Part shown: positions 595 through 16,738 of the stretch, piece after piece
Layout: every line of letters begins with the position of its first letter
Numbering within the stretch: the stretch's first letter is position 1
DNA from: Deltaproteobacteria bacterium
GTDB lineage: Bacteria > Myxococcota_A > Polyangia > Haliangiales > Haliangiaceae
DNA length: 49,051 nt
NCBI GenBank assembly: GCA_025353585.1
Contig: JANXOM010000421.1
Location: forward strand, 1 to 49,051
Reading direction: 5' to 3'
Notes under the pieces: generated by a model
What the model was told of the DNA's origin: nothing
Database searches by the model: none
What the model saw: the letters and a program-made list of their open reading frames with translations, nothing else
Translations under genes and position numbers: made by a program

Positions 595-1571
595 ACTACC
601 CTGACTACCGTCCGCGCCGGATGCGGCGCACCGAGACGTTGCGCCGCATGGTTCGCGAGACGCGGCTGTCCGTCGACGACTTCGTCTACCCGCTCTTCGT
701 GGTGCCGGGCGCCGGCGTCGAGAAGCCGATCAGCTCGCTGCCCGGGCAGTTCAACTTCTCCGTCGACAAGGCGGTCGAGGCGGCGAAGCGCACGTGGGAC
801 CTCGGCATCCCGGCCGTGATGCTGTTCGGCATCCCCGAGCACAAGGACCCGGTCGGCTCCGAGGCGTGGAAGGACGGCGGCATCGTCCAGAAGGCGATCC
901 GCGCGATCAAGAAGGCCACGCCGGACCTCGTGGTCATGGCGGACGCGTGCTTCTGCGAGTACACGGACCACGGGCACTGCGGCGTGCTGAACAAGGGCGA
1001 GCTCGACAACGACGCGTCGCTCGAGAACCTGGCCCGCGCGGTCGTGAGCTACGCGAAGGCGGGCGCGGACGTGGTAGCGCCGAGCGGCATGCTCGACGGG
1101 TTCGTGGGCGCGTGCCGCGAGAGCCTCGACGAGCAGGGCTTCGATCAGACGGTGATCCTCGCGTACTCGGCGAAGTACGCCTCGGCGTACTACGGGCCGT
1201 TCCGCGACGCGGTCGAGTCGGCGCCGACGAGCGGCGATCGCCGCGGGCACCAGATGGACTACGGCAACGTCGCGGAGGCGGTGCGCGAGGTCTCGATGGA
1301 CGTGGCGGAGGGCGCGGACATCGTGATGGTGAAGCCGGCGCTCGCGTACCTGGACGTCATCCGCGCGGTCGGCGACGAGGTGAACATGCCGCTGTGCGCG
1401 TACGCGGTGAGCGGCGAGTACGCGATGATCGAGGCGGCCGCGATCAACGGCTGGATCGACCGCGACCGCGTGGTGCTCGAGACGCTGACGGCGATCCGCC
1501 GCGCCGGCGCCGACATGATCATCACGTATCACGCGCCGCACGCGGCGAAGCTGCTGGCGAAGTCGCGGTAA
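591..1571 (+). CDS. hemB: Porphobilinogen synthase (delta-aminolevulinate dehydratase)
   Basis: Condenses two 5-aminolevulinate molecules to porphobilinogen, an early step of haem and corrinoid synthesis. The 326 aa are full length for the family. Metal-site cysteines C120, C122 and C130 lie in [14 protein letters not shown], the zinc-type arrangement rather than the Asp-rich magnesium type. The two active-site lysines are in [14 protein letters not shown] (K195) and VMVKPA (K248, Schiff base). The GTG start overlaps the hemD stop by 4 bp, so translational coupling is likely. The next gene starts on the last base of its TAA. Confidence 0.97.
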
Positions 1572-1798
1572 TGGCGATCGTCTACAAGTTCGTCGAGCTG
1601 ATGATCGTGACGGACGAGACGATCGAGACCACGGTGAACGCGTGGGTCAAGCAGGGCTGGCAGTGGGACGGCATCCGGTTCGTGGTCACCGAGTCCTCGC
1701 GCCGGCCCGGCATGGCCTTCGTGTCCTTCGTGCGCGAAGCGCCCGCCGACGCCGACGCCCCCTCGCCCCGCCCCAAGCCGCGCCTCGTCACCGACTAG
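1571..1798 (+). CDS. Small DUF4177-like protein
   Basis: A 75-aa protein whose ATG shares a base with the hemB stop (TAATG), so it is probably translationally coupled to hemB. The first 55 residues (YKFVELMIV...VNAWVKQGWQWDGIRFVV...FVSFVRE) have the pattern of DUF4177: a strand, an amphipathic helix with a 'GW' turn, then two strands. The last 20 residues are Pro/Ala/Asp-rich and probably disordered. Function is unknown. The family assignment rests on pattern only. Its TAG stop abuts the first copy of the 24-bp mobile repeat. Confidence 0.6.
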   Translation: MAIVYKFVELMIVTDETIETTVNAWVKQGWQWDGIRFVVTESSRRPGMAFVSFVREAPADADAPSPRPKPRLVTD

Positions 1799-1887
1799 GG
1801 GACGGAGTCAAAGTTGTCAAGCAGTGGGGACAACTGACCCCGTAATGTTTCAGCTACTTACCCGGGGACGGAGTCAAAGTTGTCAAG
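1798..1887 (+). repeat. 24-bp repeat pair, left end of RAYT element
   Basis: Two identical direct copies (1798-1821 and 1864-1887) whose starts are 66 bp apart. The spacer contains the imperfect palindrome GGGGACAACTGACCCC. The first base of copy 1 is the last base of the preceding gene's TAG. Copy 2 lies inside the 3' end of the transposase frame and encodes part of its C-terminus. Confidence 0.9.
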
Positions 1888-2804
1888 CGGGCGCACGCGA
1901 GGGTGACCGCCGCCCCGACCACCGGATCCGCGGCGCGCGCGGCCAACAGCGAGCCAGCCTGACGGGTAAGTCCGAGCGCGGCTGACACCTCGGCGATCGT
2001 CAGCCCTAGCGCCATGCCCGTCCGGATCGCGATCTGGCGCGCCCGCACGAGCGGCACCGTCTTCGACCGCGCGCGCGTCGCGAACTGCTCGGACGGCACC
2101 TTCACGATGTCCTCCACCACCGCGAGGACGGCGCCGACCTGCGGCCGCACGCGCGCGCCCACACGCGCGACGAGCGCAAACTCCGCGGGGTCCGCGAGCG
2201 ACGTCGCGACCTCCACGCCACCGAGGCGATGGGCCGCTCGACGCACACCGGCGATCGATGGGTAATTCAGGTCTGGCCCGACGCCCTGCACCCAATCATC
2301 GAAGCCGTCGCGTGCGACCCCGCAGCGCCGGAGTCCATCGTCGACATCGAGCCACCGCGGCACTGGCGCCTCGCCGATGTACGCGCCGTGACTCGTCCAG
2401 TCGCTGGCCCGCGCGGTCGACGTGACGTGGACGCGCACCGGGTTCCAGTGGATGTACGCGATCAGTCGCGCCTCGTGCGCCGGGCGCGTGGCCCAGAGCT
2501 TCGGTCGGTCCGCGAAGATCGGCCCGAGGCGGCCGCGCCGGCGGTTGAGCCAGAGCGCAAACGGCGAGTGCGTGCGCTTGAGCCATGACCCGAGATCGGT
2601 GGTGCCGGCGACCATCGCCAGGTGGATGTGGTTGCTCATCAACGCGTACGCGAGGCAGCGCCAGTCGGTGACCTCGAGCGCGCGGCCGAGCCGGTGGAGG
2701 TACATCGCTCGCTCGACGTCGTCGCGGAACTCCCAGGCGCGATCGACGAAGCGAGAGATGACGTGGTGGACGACGGTGAACTTGATGTTGCGAGGGGGGC
2801 GCAT
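1854..2804 (-). CDS. REP-associated tyrosine transposase (Y1_Tnp, HUH family)
   Basis: A single-strand DNA transposase of the IS200/RAYT group, 316 aa from the ATG at 2804. The frame is open to a TTG at 2849 inside the flanking repeat, but homology-like sequence begins at MRPPRNIKFTVVHHVISR. The HUH motif is in ALMSNHIHLAMV (H59, H61). The catalytic Tyr is in LIAYIHWNPVRV (Y117), the usual 'Y...NPVRA' context. After residue about 200 there is an extra helical region (RARQIAIRTGMALGLTIAEVSAALG...) resembling a DnaA-C-type helix-turn-helix, seen in some RAYTs. The last residues are encoded by the inner left repeat copy. It probably mobilises the flanking repeats; activity is not proven. Confidence 0.9.
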   Translation of the reverse strand: MRPPRNIKFTVVHHVISRFVDRAWEFRDDVERAMYLHRLGRALEVTDWRCLAYALMSNHIHLAMVAGTTDLGSWLKRTHSPFALWLNRRRGRLGPIFADRPKLWATRPAHEARLIAYIHWNPVRVHVTSTARASDWTSHGAYIGEAPVPRWLDVDDGLRRCGVARDGFDDWVQGVGPDLNYPSIAGVRRAAHRLGGVEVATSLADPAEFALVARVGARVRPQVGAVLAVVEDIVKVPSEQFATRARSKTVPLVRARQIAIRTGMALGLTIAEVSAALGLTRQAGSLLAARAADPVVGAAVTLACARLTTLTPSPGK

Positions 2805-2841
2805 CCGGCTCGTATCGGCCAGGGCGCCGCGCGGTTGCTCA

Positions 2842-2930
2842 CTTGACAACTTTGACTCCGTCCCCAGCTAAGCAGTTGAAATCGCGAGGGAACGGTAGAC
2901 CCCAGACTTGACAACTTTGACTCCGTCCCC
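2842..2930 (-). repeat. 24-bp repeat pair, right end of RAYT element
   Basis: Two identical copies in inverted orientation relative to the left pair (2842-2865 and 2907-2930), starts 65 bp apart. The spacer, read on the minus strand, starts TCTGGGGTC like the spacer at 16674 but its palindrome has decayed. The outer copy lies 10 bp downstream of the stop codon of the minus-strand kinase gene (2941). Confidence 0.9.
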
Positions 2931-2940
2931 GTGGGCGGCG

Positions 2941-5367
2941 TCAGCGGACGGGAGCGTGGGCGGCGCGGAAGGCGGCGAGGACGCGGGCGGCGCGGGCGGC
3001 GACCTCGGAGCGGATCGGGGCGAAGCGGGGCAGGTGCACGAGCGGGTGCAAGAGCGGGCACGCGTCGAGCCAGACAATGTCCATCAGGCCCATGAGGGCT
3101 GCCTGCGCCAGCGTGTCCAGCGCGGGCTGGACGCGACCGGCGCTCAGCGCCACCTCGGTCAAGAGCTGCAGCGCCATGAGCTGCTGGCGCCGGGGGCGGT
3201 CGGGGCTGTCGAAGTGCACGAGGAACGCGCGCCACGCGTCGTGGTCGAACATCGTCGGGTCATGGGTGATGCTCGTGACGAACTCGTAGATCTGCCCGCC
3301 GTTCTCGCCCATCCGCGGCACGAACCGCGCCGCTGCGCGCATCATCGCGGCGGGCTCGCCGCGCCACGCCGCCATCCGGGTCTCGATGACCGAGCCGAGC
3401 TGCATCACCGATGGGTCGCGGTCGGTCACGAGCGGGGCCACGCGCGCGGCCGCGCTCGCGTAGTCGCCGGACAGCGCGTCGAGCCGGGCGAGGTCTGTCG
3501 CGATGATGTTGGCGCGCCCCGGATCGAGCCCGAGCGCCGTCTCGAAGTGCCCGCGCGCCGCCGCGAAGCTCTCGACCTCCACCAGCATGCGCGCCACCGA
3601 CTCGTGGACCGGCGCGCTCATCGGCGCCCGCGCGAGCGCCGTCGCCAGATCGACCGCGGCCGCCTCGGCGTGCCCGCAGTTGAGCTTGTAGATGCCTCCG
3701 GCGAGCAGCGCCTCGCCGTGCCCTGTCGCGAGCCCGCGCTCCATCGCCGCGCGCGCGCGGGGCGCGAACTTGGCCTCGGCCGTCATCACCCACGCCTGCA
3801 CGTTCGCCAGCGCGCGCGATGCGAGGATCTGGTCGTTGTCGGGCGCGAACTCCGCGGCGCGGTCGAGCAACTCCGCGGCCGCGGCGGCGTGCACACCCCA
3901 GAATCGCCGCAGCTCGGCGCGCGCGCGCAAGTACAGGTCGACGGCGCGTGGGTCGATCGAGCGCGCCGCGCCGGTCGCCCGGGTGGAGAGCGCCTGCGCG
4001 ATGCCGCGCGCCAGCTCGTCGGCGACCGTCAGGATCGCGGCCTCGGCGCAGTCGACCCGGTGCGCCCACACCTGGAACCCGTCGGTAACCGAGATGAGCC
4101 GCGCCGTCACGCGCAGCCCCCTCGCCGTCCGCCGCAGCGCGATCGTCGCGACGTGATCCACCTCGAGCTGACGCCCGATCTCGCGCGGATCTGGCGCGTG
4201 CAGCGAGCGCACGAGCCCCGCCGGTCGCACGCGGACACTGCTCGATGACAGGCTGTCGATGACGTCGTCGAGCACACCATCGGCCAGGTACTCGTCCCCG
4301 GCCGCGCACGCGACGGGCAGCACCGCGAGCGAGCTCGCGTGCGAGGCAGGCGTCGGCACCGGCGTCGGTGTGAGCCCGACAGGCGACGGCGCCACGCTCG
4401 CGTGGGACCCACGCGCGATCGCCGCGCCGACCGCCTGCGCGTCCGCGCCGAGCGCATCGGCGACCGCGCGCGCGCTCGCGGGTCGGGCGCCCGGCTCGAG
4501 CGCCAGGCACCGCCCCACCAGCTCGACGAACGCGGCCGGCACGTCCGCGATCAGCGGCCGCATCGGCTGCGTCACCTGCGCCACCGCGATCGTGATCGCG
4601 TTCTCGCCGAGCCACGGCCGCGCCCCGGTCGCGAGCTCGTAGAGCATCACGCCGAGGGAGAACAGATCCGAGCGCGCCTCGACCTCGCCCCCGTTGAGCT
4701 GCTCCGGCGACATGTAGCGCGGCGTCCCGATCATCGCGCCGACCTGTGTCACGTGCGCGTCGTCGAGGCTGCGCGCGATGCCGAAGTCGCTGATCACCGC
4801 GCGCTCCGTGTCCCGCTCGATCAGCACGTTGTCCGGCTTCAGGTCGCGGTGCACCACGCCCGCTGCGTGTGCGGCCGCGAGCCCCTCGCACAGCTGGCGC
4901 GCGATCGGGGCGAGCTGATGCCACGGCAGCCGCGGCCCGTGCTGCGCGAGCGAGCGCCCCGCGACGAGCTCCATCGTCAAGAACTTCACGCCCGCGTGCT
5001 CGCCGATGTCGAACATGCGCGCGACATTCCGGTGCTGGATGCGCCGCGTCAGCTTCACCTCGCGGCGAAACCGCTCGATCGCCTCGTCGGAGAGCCCGTC
5101 GCGCAGCACCTTCAGGGCGATCTCCTCGCCGAGCTCCGTGTCGAGCGCGGCGTACACGCGCCCCATGCCGCCGCCGCCGAGCCAGCGCACGAGGCGATAG
5201 CGCCCCGCGATCAGCTCGGGCAGAGGGCCGGCCGCGCCGCTCAGCGTCGGGGCGCCGGTGCCGGCGACCGTGTCGTCCTCGCCACCTGACAAGCAGGCCA
5301 AGCGTACCGCGAAACGGTCAGATCCGTCGGGCGTGCGCAGCCCAGCCGAGCTCGCCGTACAGCGCAC
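2941..5367 (-). CDS. Ser/Thr protein kinase with TolB-like and TPR regions
   Basis: A Hanks-type kinase, 808 aa from the GTG at 5367. That start overlaps the upstream gene by 50 bp and conserved sequence starts only near residue 53, so a TTG at 5292 (residue 26) is a credible alternative. Kinase domain about 55-310: P-loop LGGGGMG, K86 (ALK), HRDLKPDN (173-180), SDFGIAR, GTPRYMSPEQ. A Pro/Thr linker follows. Residues 346-460 (SLAVLPV...YLADGVLDDVI...GFQVWAHRVD) match the TolB-like region often found next to adenylate cyclases or kinases. The remainder is Ala-rich helical TPR. There is no transmembrane segment between kinase and TolB-like region, so it is probably cytosolic. Last gene of a minus-strand run with the two upstream genes. 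Confidence 0.93.
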   Translation of the reverse strand: MRCTASSAGLRTPDGSDRFAVRLACLSGGEDDTVAGTGAPTLSGAAGPLPELIAGRYRLVRWLGGGGMGRVYAALDTELGEEIALKVLRDGLSDEAIERFRREVKLTRRIQHRNVARMFDIGEHAGVKFLTMELVAGRSLAQHGPRLPWHQLAPIARQLCEGLAAAHAAGVVHRDLKPDNVLIERDTERAVISDFGIARSLDDAHVTQVGAMIGTPRYMSPEQLNGGEVEARSDLFSLGVMLYELATGARPWLGENAITIAVAQVTQPMRPLIADVPAAFVELVGRCLALEPGARPASARAVADALGADAQAVGAAIARGSHASVAPSPVGLTPTPVPTPASHASSLAVLPVACAAGDEYLADGVLDDVIDSLSSSSVRVRPAGLVRSLHAPDPREIGRQLEVDHVATIALRRTARGLRVTARLISVTDGFQVWAHRVDCAEAAILTVADELARGIAQALSTRATGAARSIDPRAVDLYLRARAELRRFWGVHAAAAAELLDRAAEFAPDNDQILASRALANVQAWVMTAEAKFAPRARAAMERGLATGHGEALLAGGIYKLNCGHAEAAAVDLATALARAPMSAPVHESVARMLVEVESFAAARGHFETALGLDPGRANIIATDLARLDALSGDYASAAARVAPLVTDRDPSVMQLGSVIETRMAAWRGEPAAMMRAAARFVPRMGENGGQIYEFVTSITHDPTMFDHDAWRAFLVHFDSPDRPRRQQLMALQLLTEVALSAGRVQPALDTLAQAALMGLMDIVWLDACPLLHPLVHLPRFAPIRSEVAARAARVLAAFRAAHAPVR

Positions 5368-15184: not shown

Positions 15185-16650
15185 GCTTCGAAGCGGGAGA
15201 CCTCGGCTGGCTCGTTCCGTACCTGATCCTCGCGGTCGTCGGCATGGTGCTGGTGCTCGCGGAGGCCTTCTTCAAGGGCCGTGATCACACGTCGCTGGCG
15301 GGGCTCGCCGTCGCGGGCTGCGTGGCCTCGGGCGTCGCCTCCATCGTGCTCGTGCGGCAGCTCGCCGGCTCCGAGCAGCACATGCTGCTCGGCTCGATGC
15401 TCGTCGCCGATCGCACGAGCTACGTGCTGTCGGCGCTGTTCGCGTTCACCACGGCGGCCTGCGCGCTGATCTCGCCCGCGCACCAGAAGGAGCACGGCTG
15501 GAAGATCGGCGAGTACTACGGCGTCCTGCTGCTCTCGGCGTCCGGTTGCGTGATGCTCGCCCACGCCGCGAACATGGTCACCGTGTTCCTCGGCATCGAG
15601 ACGATGTCGATCGGCGTGTACGTCATGACGGCGATGCGGCGCCGCTCGCGGCGCGGCAACGAGGCCGCGATGAAGTACTTCCTCATCGGCGCGTTCGCGA
15701 CCGGCTTTCTCATGTACGGTATGGCGCTCATCTACGGCGCCTCCGGCACGCTGTCGCTCGTGGAGATGCCGGCCGCGATCGCCCGCACGCACAACCCGGG
15801 CCTCGTCATCGCGGGCGGCTTCCTGCTGGTCGTCGCGTTCGGCTTCAAGGTCGCCGCGGTGCCGTTCCACATGTGGGCCCCCGATGCCTACGAGGGCGCG
15901 CCGACGCCGGTCACCGGCTTCATGGCCGCCGCCGTCAAGTCGGCCGCCATCGCCGCGATGATCCGCGTGTTCGGCACGGCGCTCGGCGGCGACATCACGC
16001 CGTTCGGCGCGCTCGGCTGGGCGAGCCCGCTGGTCGTCATCGCCGCGATCACGATCACCATCGGCAACATCACGGCGGTCCGGCAGGACAACGTGAAGCG
16101 CATGCTCGCGTACTCGTCGATCTCGCACGCGGGCGTCCTGCTCGTGGGCGTGTGCGCGATGGGCCTCGGCTCGAGCAGCGCGCAGGCGAGCCTCGTGTAC
16201 TACCTCATCGCGTACAGCGTCGCGACGATGGGCGTGTTCGCCGTCGTCTCGTACGTCGGCTCGCGCGGCCGCGAGCGGCTGCTGGTCGACGACTGGGGCG
16301 GGCTCGCGAGCCAGCACCCCGGCGCGGCCCTCGCGATGACGATCTGCCTGCTCTCGTTCGGCGGCATGCCGCCGACCGGCGGCTTCTTCGCGAAGTTCTA
16401 CCTGTTCAAGTCCGCGATGGACGTCTACAGCGGCCAGCTGCTCTGGGTCGTGGTCATCGGCGTCGTCAACTCGGCGATCAGCATCTACTACTACCTGCGC
16501 ATCGTGACCGCGATGTACTTCCGCGACTCGACCCAGCCGATGGCCCCGACGCGCTCCGCCGGCCTCCTCTTCGTCATGGCCGCGTGTCCGCTGCTTGTCC
16601 TCGAGCTCGGCCTCATGCCCGGCTTCTGGCTCAAGCTCATCGGCGGCTAG
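15181..16650 (+). CDS. nuoN: NADH-quinone oxidoreductase subunit N
   Basis: The third antiporter-like subunit (ND2 equivalent), 489 aa. Family segments: GIETMSIGVYVMTA, KVAAVPFHMWAPDAYEGAPTPVTGFMA, AYSSISHAGVLLVGV and GMPPTGGFFAKFYLF. The ATG at 15181 overlaps the nuoM stop by 4 bp; the frame is open far upstream but only as a shadow of nuoM. Last gene of the run. Its TAG is directly followed by a mobile 24-bp repeat, whose first G is the G of the stop. Confidence 0.97.
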
Positions 16651-16738
16651 GGGACGGTGTCAAAGTTGTCAAGTCTGGGGTCAACTGACCCCGAGCGATC
16701 TCCAGCACTTACCTGGGGACGGAGTCAAAGTTGTCAAG
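16650..16738 (+). repeat. Stand-alone 24-bp repeat pair (no transposase)
   Basis: Copies at 16650-16673 and 16715-16738, starts 65 bp apart, same orientation and spacing as the left end of the RAYT element. The first copy has one substitution (GGTGTC for GGAGTC); the second is identical to the element's copies. The spacer contains a perfect palindromic arm pair GGGGTCA/TGACCCC. It begins on the nuoN stop codon and ends 19 bp before the malQ ATG. It looks like a non-autonomous relative moved by the transposase. Confidence 0.88.

Follow-up and report, generated by a model that had tools for sequence, protein, structure and literature searches.

A likely TIRYT-type transposase element and its genome-wide family of head-to-tail repeat doublets in a Deltaproteobacteria bacterium

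RAYT-like transposases with long inverted repeats and the element at 1798-2930

RAYT-like genes flanked by long inverted repeats starting with GGGG were named TIRYT, or TIRtrons, by Di Nocera 2013 (PMC3733652), where, in the accessible part of the text, they comprise an HUH/Y1 gene whose 3' end may be overlapped by a repeat, and where some of the TIRs form genome-wide families with many members in dimers or clusters. That text does not settle whether the repeats are spread by TIRYTs. This little-studied type corresponds to subclass 2.1 of the TnpA-REP proteins (Quentin 2018, PMC6006769), described there as long RAYT-like proteins with C-terminal helix-turn-helix matches (Bac_DnaA_C, HTH_23, HTH_28) and no adjoining classic REP; no genome-wide repeat population is reported for it in the accessible text. 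Of the papers searched, these two alone use the words TIRYT or TIRtron. The classic GTAG REPs carry a GT[AG]G tag 5' of a stable hairpin, and head-to-tail dimers are, as far as the text of PMC3733652 goes, absent or rare in most of their families. They form REPINs, inverted, hairpin-forming pairs of short repeats around a more variable spacer, proposed to spread as a unit and linked to a specific transposase (Bertels and Rainey 2011, PMC3116915, in the text available); in P. fluorescens SBW25, 93% of 430 REP doublets are inverted (PMC3116915). A 2021 study of REP recognition (PMC8266576) states that evidence for mobility of tnpA-REP genes is lacking, and the word TIR does not occur in its available text.

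The window considered here is the whole stretch of 49,051 nucleotides, and at 1798-2930 it contains four exact copies of the 24-mer GGGGACGGAGTCAAAGTTGTCAAG (R) around a Y1/HUH transposase gene, in the order R-R>...<R-R. The inward-facing head-to-tail pairs that the initial annotation had described around this gene are thus borne out. The features of the element, with those of a further doublet in the window, are as follows.

1798..1821, + strand: outer left repeat R, 24 nt, exact copy
1822..1863, + strand: left spacer, with block GGGGACAACTGACCCC at 1826-1841, then a tail ending CTTACCC
1854..2804, - strand: transposase gene, probably TIRYT-type Y1/HUH, 316 aa from an ATG; a TTG at 2849 is a possible alternative start that would lengthen the protein
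1864..1887, + strand: inner left repeat R, within the 3' end of the transposase gene; spacing to the outer left R 66 bp
1875..2147, - strand: C-terminal helical domain (about residues 220-310), DnaA DNA-binding-domain-like by its 3pvp match, placed by the predicted helices
2454..2456, - strand: Tyr117, likely catalytic, invariant in 61/61
2622..2630, - strand: HUH motif His59-Ile60-His61, both His invariant in 11 relatives
2805..2836, - strand: promoter-like leader AAC-N16-CGATA preceding the ATG, from a comparison of 11 transposase leaders
2842..2865, - strand: inner right repeat R, exact copy
2866..2906, - strand: right spacer, with altered block GGGGTCTACCGTTCCC
2907..2930, - strand: outer right repeat R; spacing to the inner right R 65 bp; the kinase stop lies 10 bp further out
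16650..16738, + strand: lone doublet of 89 bp (R, spacer, R), located where a proton-antiporter-family gene has its stop codon; not at the syntenic site of sister genomes

The first G of the outer left repeat (1798) completes the TAG stop of the upstream gene. The transposase gene had been thought to end inside a repeat copy; in fact its reading frame crosses the inner copy (1864-1887) from end to end and reaches its TAG stop in the spacer, at 1854-1856. The further doublet of the window consists of copies at 16650-16673 (1 mismatch) and 16715-16738, both on the + strand, and not one of 100 dinucleotide shuffles of the window contained even a single match to the 24-mer. A search of positions 1200-3600 against Rfam at the gathering threshold matched nothing.

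The ATG at 2804 is the likely start of the transposase rather than the TTG at 2849, since in ten relatives an ATG occupies the corresponding position behind a conserved leader. Given the start codons chosen for these 11 transposases, the motif AAC-N-CGA[TC]A stands just before the ATG in all of them, with a spacer of 16 nucleotides in ten and 15 in one. From its sequence the leader AAC-N16-CGA[TC]A is promoter-like, which would make the mRNA almost leaderless, and in the window (2805-2836) as in the ten relatives we take it to resemble an ECF-type promoter.

On its own the protein finds no Pfam family, and its sole NCBIfam match is REP_Tyr_transpos, at 28 bits against a cutoff of 80; among the 11 aligned members Y1_Tnp is found in 9 at E values up to 0.1 (best 1.3e-5), and some, the window protein not among them, show weak helix-turn-helix or Bac_DnaA_C matches. 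A profile search against PDB sequences gave weak matches only, with no Y1 transposase among them, and a phage search gave none; the plasmid search returned 8 records, all below 60% identity and none covering 80%. AlphaFold modelling from 11 sequences gave a poor result (pLDDT 57.5), and the model used here was built from 61 sequences, with a mean pLDDT of 92.6 and pTM of 0.82; the alignment holds 61 of 85 candidates (the 11 close ones and 50 of 74), the other 24 having been dropped by hand, nearly all for length. In this alignment H61 is invariant and H59 is present in at least 90%, and Tyr117 is presumably the catalytic residue, by analogy with the Y1 family. The best solved relative of the model is the REP transposase 4er8 (E 8e-7, target TM 0.70), followed by the IS200/IS605 TnpA structures (2vjv, 2xma), with which it shares the HUH/Y1 catalytic fold, whereas the additional C-terminal domain and the inverted doublets set it apart. 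To our knowledge, IS200/IS605 elements have no inverted doublet ends. The model also matches the DNA-binding domain of M. tuberculosis DnaA (3pvp; E 9e-3, probability 1.00, target TM 0.77), a match that is not strong by itself because Thg1-like proteins, unlikely relatives, reach similar E values. As modelled, the transposase combines an HUH fold resembling that of REP transposases with a part resembling the DnaA DNA-binding domain, and it is plausible that this C-terminal domain would read the repeat R as a linear sequence; we claim no likeness of R to DnaA boxes.

These features likely place the element in the TIRYT/TIRtron class (subclass 2.1 by its described features), outside the GTAG REP-RAYT systems. 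The HUH motif with a catalytic-type Tyr and the long terminal inverted repeats of non-GTAG type are those of TIRYTs, and the C-terminal HTH/DnaA_C-like trait of subclass 2.1 is represented by the 3pvp match. The motif GGGGWSAS, given for some though not all TIRs in the available text of PMC3733652, agrees with GGGGACGG here at 7 of 8 positions and differs at position 7. The view that a RAYT-like transposase has its own genome-wide repeat family stands, with 66 copies, whereas the suggestion that this kind of system was uncharacterised does not, in the light of what the accessible parts of PMC3733652 and PMC6006769 describe; relative to the latter, the 66 copies and the modelled C-terminal fold are additions.

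The doublet as a unit and its population in one genome

The source genome (G000; 8.0 Mb in 437 contigs, 89.9% complete) contains 66 copies of the 24-mer at up to 3 mismatches, against 0 for the reversed-pattern control, and all 66 fall into 33 head-to-tail doublets spaced 65 or 66 bp, 20 further sites having been fetched for inspection; no lone copy was found at this threshold. The initial annotation had proposed just such a genome-wide count, with clustering at about 65 bp, as its check. Two of the doublets are those of the window element, 12 form six mini-elements and 19 are singles, the latter comprising 9 lone doublets and 10 in five distant pairs.

Inward-facing mini-elements: C14, C96, C103, C136, C331, C426; the inner gap carries a TTGTCCG...CGGAC-like hairpin and the centres are similar
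Lone doublets: C83, C97 (the one at 16650), C129, C134, C182, C228, C273, C365, C414
Distant doublet pairs around some 650-1120 bp of other sequence: C167, C210, C291, C424, C437

That the distant pairs enclose transposed cargo was considered and rejected for C167, C210, C424 and C437, each of which has an ordinary host gene inside (by Pfam, in these four: a GNAT acetyltransferase, queG, a phosphopantetheinyl transferase and an RNA methyltransferase). Since queG is syntenic in sister genomes, its doublet pair looks like two separate insertions.

The repeats of the 33 doublets are nearly uniform: the 24-mer is matched exactly by 22 of the outer and 29 of the inner copies, and pairwise identity is 97% among outer and 99% among inner repeats, as against 59% among spacers (65% within the first spacer type). 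The spacer block GGGG...CCCC is complete in 21 spacers, altered in 6 and replaced by other sequence in 6 (hand count), while in the spacer tail two T are invariant in 33/33 and other positions are conserved less. A spacer hairpin as the conserved signal was considered and is not supported. In 18 distinct blocks from the 27 first-type spacers, the 6 others being excluded, 108 of 126 cells are paired against 105.5 +/- 2.4 in shuffles, a level that 1029 of the 5000 shuffles attained; RNAalifold, applied to 20 of the 33 units, gave 12 pairs, none preserved by changes on both sides; and DNA folding of 5 units was no better than shuffles (z -1.34 to 1.07). The spacer palindrome of the initial annotation thus exists as a frequent block, and its role as the recognised feature is not supported; in those same 20 and 5 units folding gives no stable hairpin, in agreement with the annotation's remark that the repeat is unlike a classic hairpin REP.

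This bears on the possibility that the locus is a classic REP-RAYT system, of the GTAG type that forms REPINs, with a degenerate repeat. The 4er8 and REP_Tyr_transpos matches would suit such a system, yet R contains neither GTAG nor GTGG, lacks a stable hairpin, and occurs head to tail in 33 of 33 doublets where REPINs are inverted; the C-terminal domain and the GGGG-starting inverted repeats suit TIRYT instead. We regard this possibility as hardly probable at all. What is shared with REPINs is the proposal of a short-repeat doublet with a more variable spacer as the spreading unit, linked to a specific transposase.

Another alternative is an ordinary insertion sequence, whose internal deletions gave rise to MITEs and whose remnants are the single doublets. 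Mini-elements with inward-facing ends and a similar centre are what such an origin would leave, and the absence of the whole element at its syntenic site in G001 and G015 is compatible with it. The transposase, however, is single copy (the 4 protein matches in G000 are itself and three at 52-53% identity), while single doublets make up 19 of 33, and a spacing of 65 or 66 bp in all 33 doublets is unlike remnants. Moreover, 5 of the 6 mini-elements have one ordinary end and one end with a second spacer type that is absent from the window element (in C96 both ends are ordinary), so that they are not simple deletions of it. An ordinary insertion sequence is accordingly, in our estimation, very unlikely.

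Syntenic sites without the element and the polarity of doublets at gene ends

The window element and three single doublets are present in G000 and absent at the syntenic sites of its congeners. In G001 the ALAD gene and its small neighbour adjoin the kinase, with 49 bp between the matched parts and the 1133-bp element absent; ALAD and kinase are likewise adjacent without the element in G015, a less clean site because the end of ALAD is altered and the small gene is not seen, and in the remaining sisters the genes are far apart, on separate contigs or not comparable. At the 16650 site, for which 11 sisters were aligned, at least five (G003, G004, G005, G006, G015) have both flanks close together and no doublet. 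The doublet to the left of queG is absent in 9 of 9 sisters aligned, and in G000 the upstream gene now terminates inside it; to the right of queG, where the reading comes from match gaps alone, G004, G014 and G015 leave no room for a doublet. As the sisters are without any copy of the 24-mer, the evidence rests on intact flanks, and the upstream flanks, about 76-86% identical to the sisters, are too diverged for the exact target or junction to be read.

Doublets are also oriented with respect to genes. With flanking genes called from third-position GC and an open frame, without annotation, 39 of 42 singles have their GGGG end turned towards a gene's 3' end: 18/19 in family A (the 24-mer R; the exception is the left doublet of C167, hand count), 6/7 in a second family of the same genome (B) and 15/16 in G012. 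The values for B and G012 come from 16 and 20 regions at listed places, nearly all chosen for holding doublets; they exclude mini-elements, along with two units in which a flank was not called, and include in family B one doubtful gene call (L287), whose frame continues for 669 bp. Restricting the comparison to neighbours reading in the same direction leaves 10/10 in A, 3/4 in B and 10/10 in G012, in total 23/24 (one-sided binomial 1.5e-6). The stop of the gene faced in this way ends within 2 bases of the repeat start in 7/18 singles of A, 2/6 of B and 11/15 of G012 (hand count). In G012, 10 of 25 outer ends read TA/GGGACG (the slash marks the repeat start), the repeat completing a TAG stop, in comparison with a frequency of 0.4% for TA before GG in the flanks; repeat-completed TAG stops number 3/33 in A and 0/26 in B. 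For GTAG REPs, too, both a location near gene 3' ends and the supply of TAG are reported in the text of PMC3733652. The fixed polarity of the direct doublets may stem from target choice or from selection, and insertion sites inspected by eye revealed no strict motif. We also observed, post hoc, that at family A ends 10 of the 12 genes reading into the GGGG end of a doublet share a single frame, which stops at base 49 and gives a GTESKLSS-type tail.

Such placement might also be expected if the transposase were a domesticated regulator, with the doublets serving as host gene-end sites (transcription or mRNA 3'-end signals) that the C-terminal domain binds and that, having spread at an earlier time, are now immobile and retained for their function. 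A near-invariant repeat with variable spacers, the strong polarity to gene 3' ends and the single-copy transposase would all fit such a role. Against it stand the lack of conserved structure (20 units without a change kept on both sides, 5 units folding like shuffles), the occurrence of doublets in 1 of the 16 genomes of the genus searched, sisters that lack sites at the same genes, and, in 61 relatives, an invariant catalytic His and Tyr with the other His nearly so. We consider this reading unlikely.

We judge it probable that the locus is a TIRYT-type element, in which a single-copy HUH/Y1 transposase with a DnaA-like domain is flanked by doublets of its 24-nt recognition repeat, and that it operates according to a working model of five steps. 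The transposase would be made from its own promoter-like leader. Its C-terminal domain would recognise the linear repeat, and the HUH domain, judging from the fold and the family, would nick single-stranded DNA at the doublet. The spreading unit would mainly be the 89-bp doublet R-spacer-R and less often the inward-facing doublet pair seen as a mini-element. Doublets are observed at gene ends or just past them, with the GGGG end towards the gene 3' end. Finally, the observed pattern of nearly identical repeats and drifting spacers could reflect recognition of intact repeats only. The underlying sequence observations are firm; movement of doublets and element by the transposase is, we infer, the best-supported mechanism.

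More tentatively, and with rather less than even confidence, we propose that the direct doublet is a replicative unit distinct from the REPIN, copied and inserted with fixed polarity at gene 3' ends by an HUH transposase that reads a linear repeat by way of a DnaA-type domain, and that within one transposase clade the geometry of the unit switches between direct doublets (G000, G012) and inverted pairs at a fixed distance (G029). The orientation of TIR dimers, a fixed head-to-tail doublet, its polarity and evidence from sites lacking it are not described for TIRs in the accessible text of PMC3733652, and among the titles and abstract beginnings listed from the openly accessible RAYT, REPIN and domesticated-transposase literature none concerns this arrangement. 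The fixed head-to-tail doublet as an inserted unit, together with its gene-end polarity, is thus apparently new, and the two impose sharp, testable constraints on how RAYT-like enzymes choose and insert DNA.

Repeat families and unit geometry among relatives

At up to 2 mismatches the 24-mer is found in none of 143 other relatives, 15 of them of the same genus, and so only in G000 among 144 genomes, while a protein match to the transposase (E <=0.001) occurs in 49 of the 144, G000 included; the closest named genomes bearing it are assemblies labelled Myxococcales, Kofleriaceae or Deltaproteobacteria. Absence of the repeat elsewhere in its genome, or equal abundance in genomes lacking the transposase, had been named in the initial annotation as what would refute its reading. 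Neither holds, the repeat being genome-wide and absent from the 143 relatives, but with one carrier genome going with this transposase is indistinguishable from being private to this species.

Two paralogous transposases of G000 (C315, C432; 53% identity) have the same layout with other repeat cores. Head-to-tail doublets flank 8 of the 11 close transposases, on one side or on both, and in 6 the spacing is equal to within 1 bp at both ends.

Spacing at both ends (bp): A 65/66, B 66/66, C 65/65, G013 60/61, G008 61/61, G012 56/56
Spacing at the upstream end only (bp): G003 60; G001 61, where the inner copy has 6/23 mismatches, the limit used
Irregular or single layouts: G004, 35 upstream and 67 + 32 downstream; G028 and G029, single repeats

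Transposase and repeat distances over these 11 members show no correlation. Mantel tests of repeat-transposase co-evolution (Spearman, 3000 permutations per test) gave a rho of -0.01 for the whole protein (p 0.54), 0.03 for its N part (p 0.44) and 0.05 for its C part (p 0.40).

A degenerate pattern for the repeat class, whose reversed control gives a total of 3 matches over the 30 genomes of the family, finds 124 in G000, 81 in G012, 66 in G029, 33 in G028, 10 in G004, 9 in G007, 6 in G009, 3 in G013 and a single one in each of G014, G024 and G018, the remaining 19 having none; by their sequence the matches in G024 and G018 look like chance. The repeats of G001, G003 and G008 fall outside this pattern, which was built from transposase flanks, and these numbers leave their genome-wide copies uncounted; for both reasons a Fisher test (p 0.0003) is partly circular, and we do not rely on it. 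G007 and G009 carry class repeats, and no transposase of matching type was found in either, which counts against strict co-occurrence. A second class pattern gives 174 repeats in G000 (control 0), and among those listed family B has 66-bp doublets and mini-elements. G000, which combines three related transposases with as many repeat families and has dozens of doublets along with syntenic sites that lack them, amounts to a compact natural test of whether such enzymes spread their repeats.

The geometry of the unit varies within the clade: the same-strand doublets listed for G012 are 56 bp apart (57 in one), whereas in G029 (e.g. C54:71020-71085) 42 of the 66 class repeats lie in inverted pairs exactly 44 bp apart (hand count), a REPIN-like geometry in contrast to the direct doublets of G000 and G012. 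In G028 most copies are single, and there are some inverted pairs whose distances vary. G029 and G012 consequently allow unit geometry to be compared within one clade.

Repeats of other kinds adjoin further Y1 genes. The third match in G000 (C152) is a shorter protein next to hairpin repeats of another type; this fourth Y1 protein of the genome stands beside 47-nt repeats (L054:2089-2135, 3111-3204) whose two hairpins are TGTCCG..CGGACA and GGGCCAGG.CCC, so that a type resembling classic REPs is present in the same genome. Likewise, other Y1 genes in G009 (L064) and G005 (L065) lie beside hairpin repeats of the GGGGTCGGACCCC or TGTCCG type, which belong to a different repeat class.
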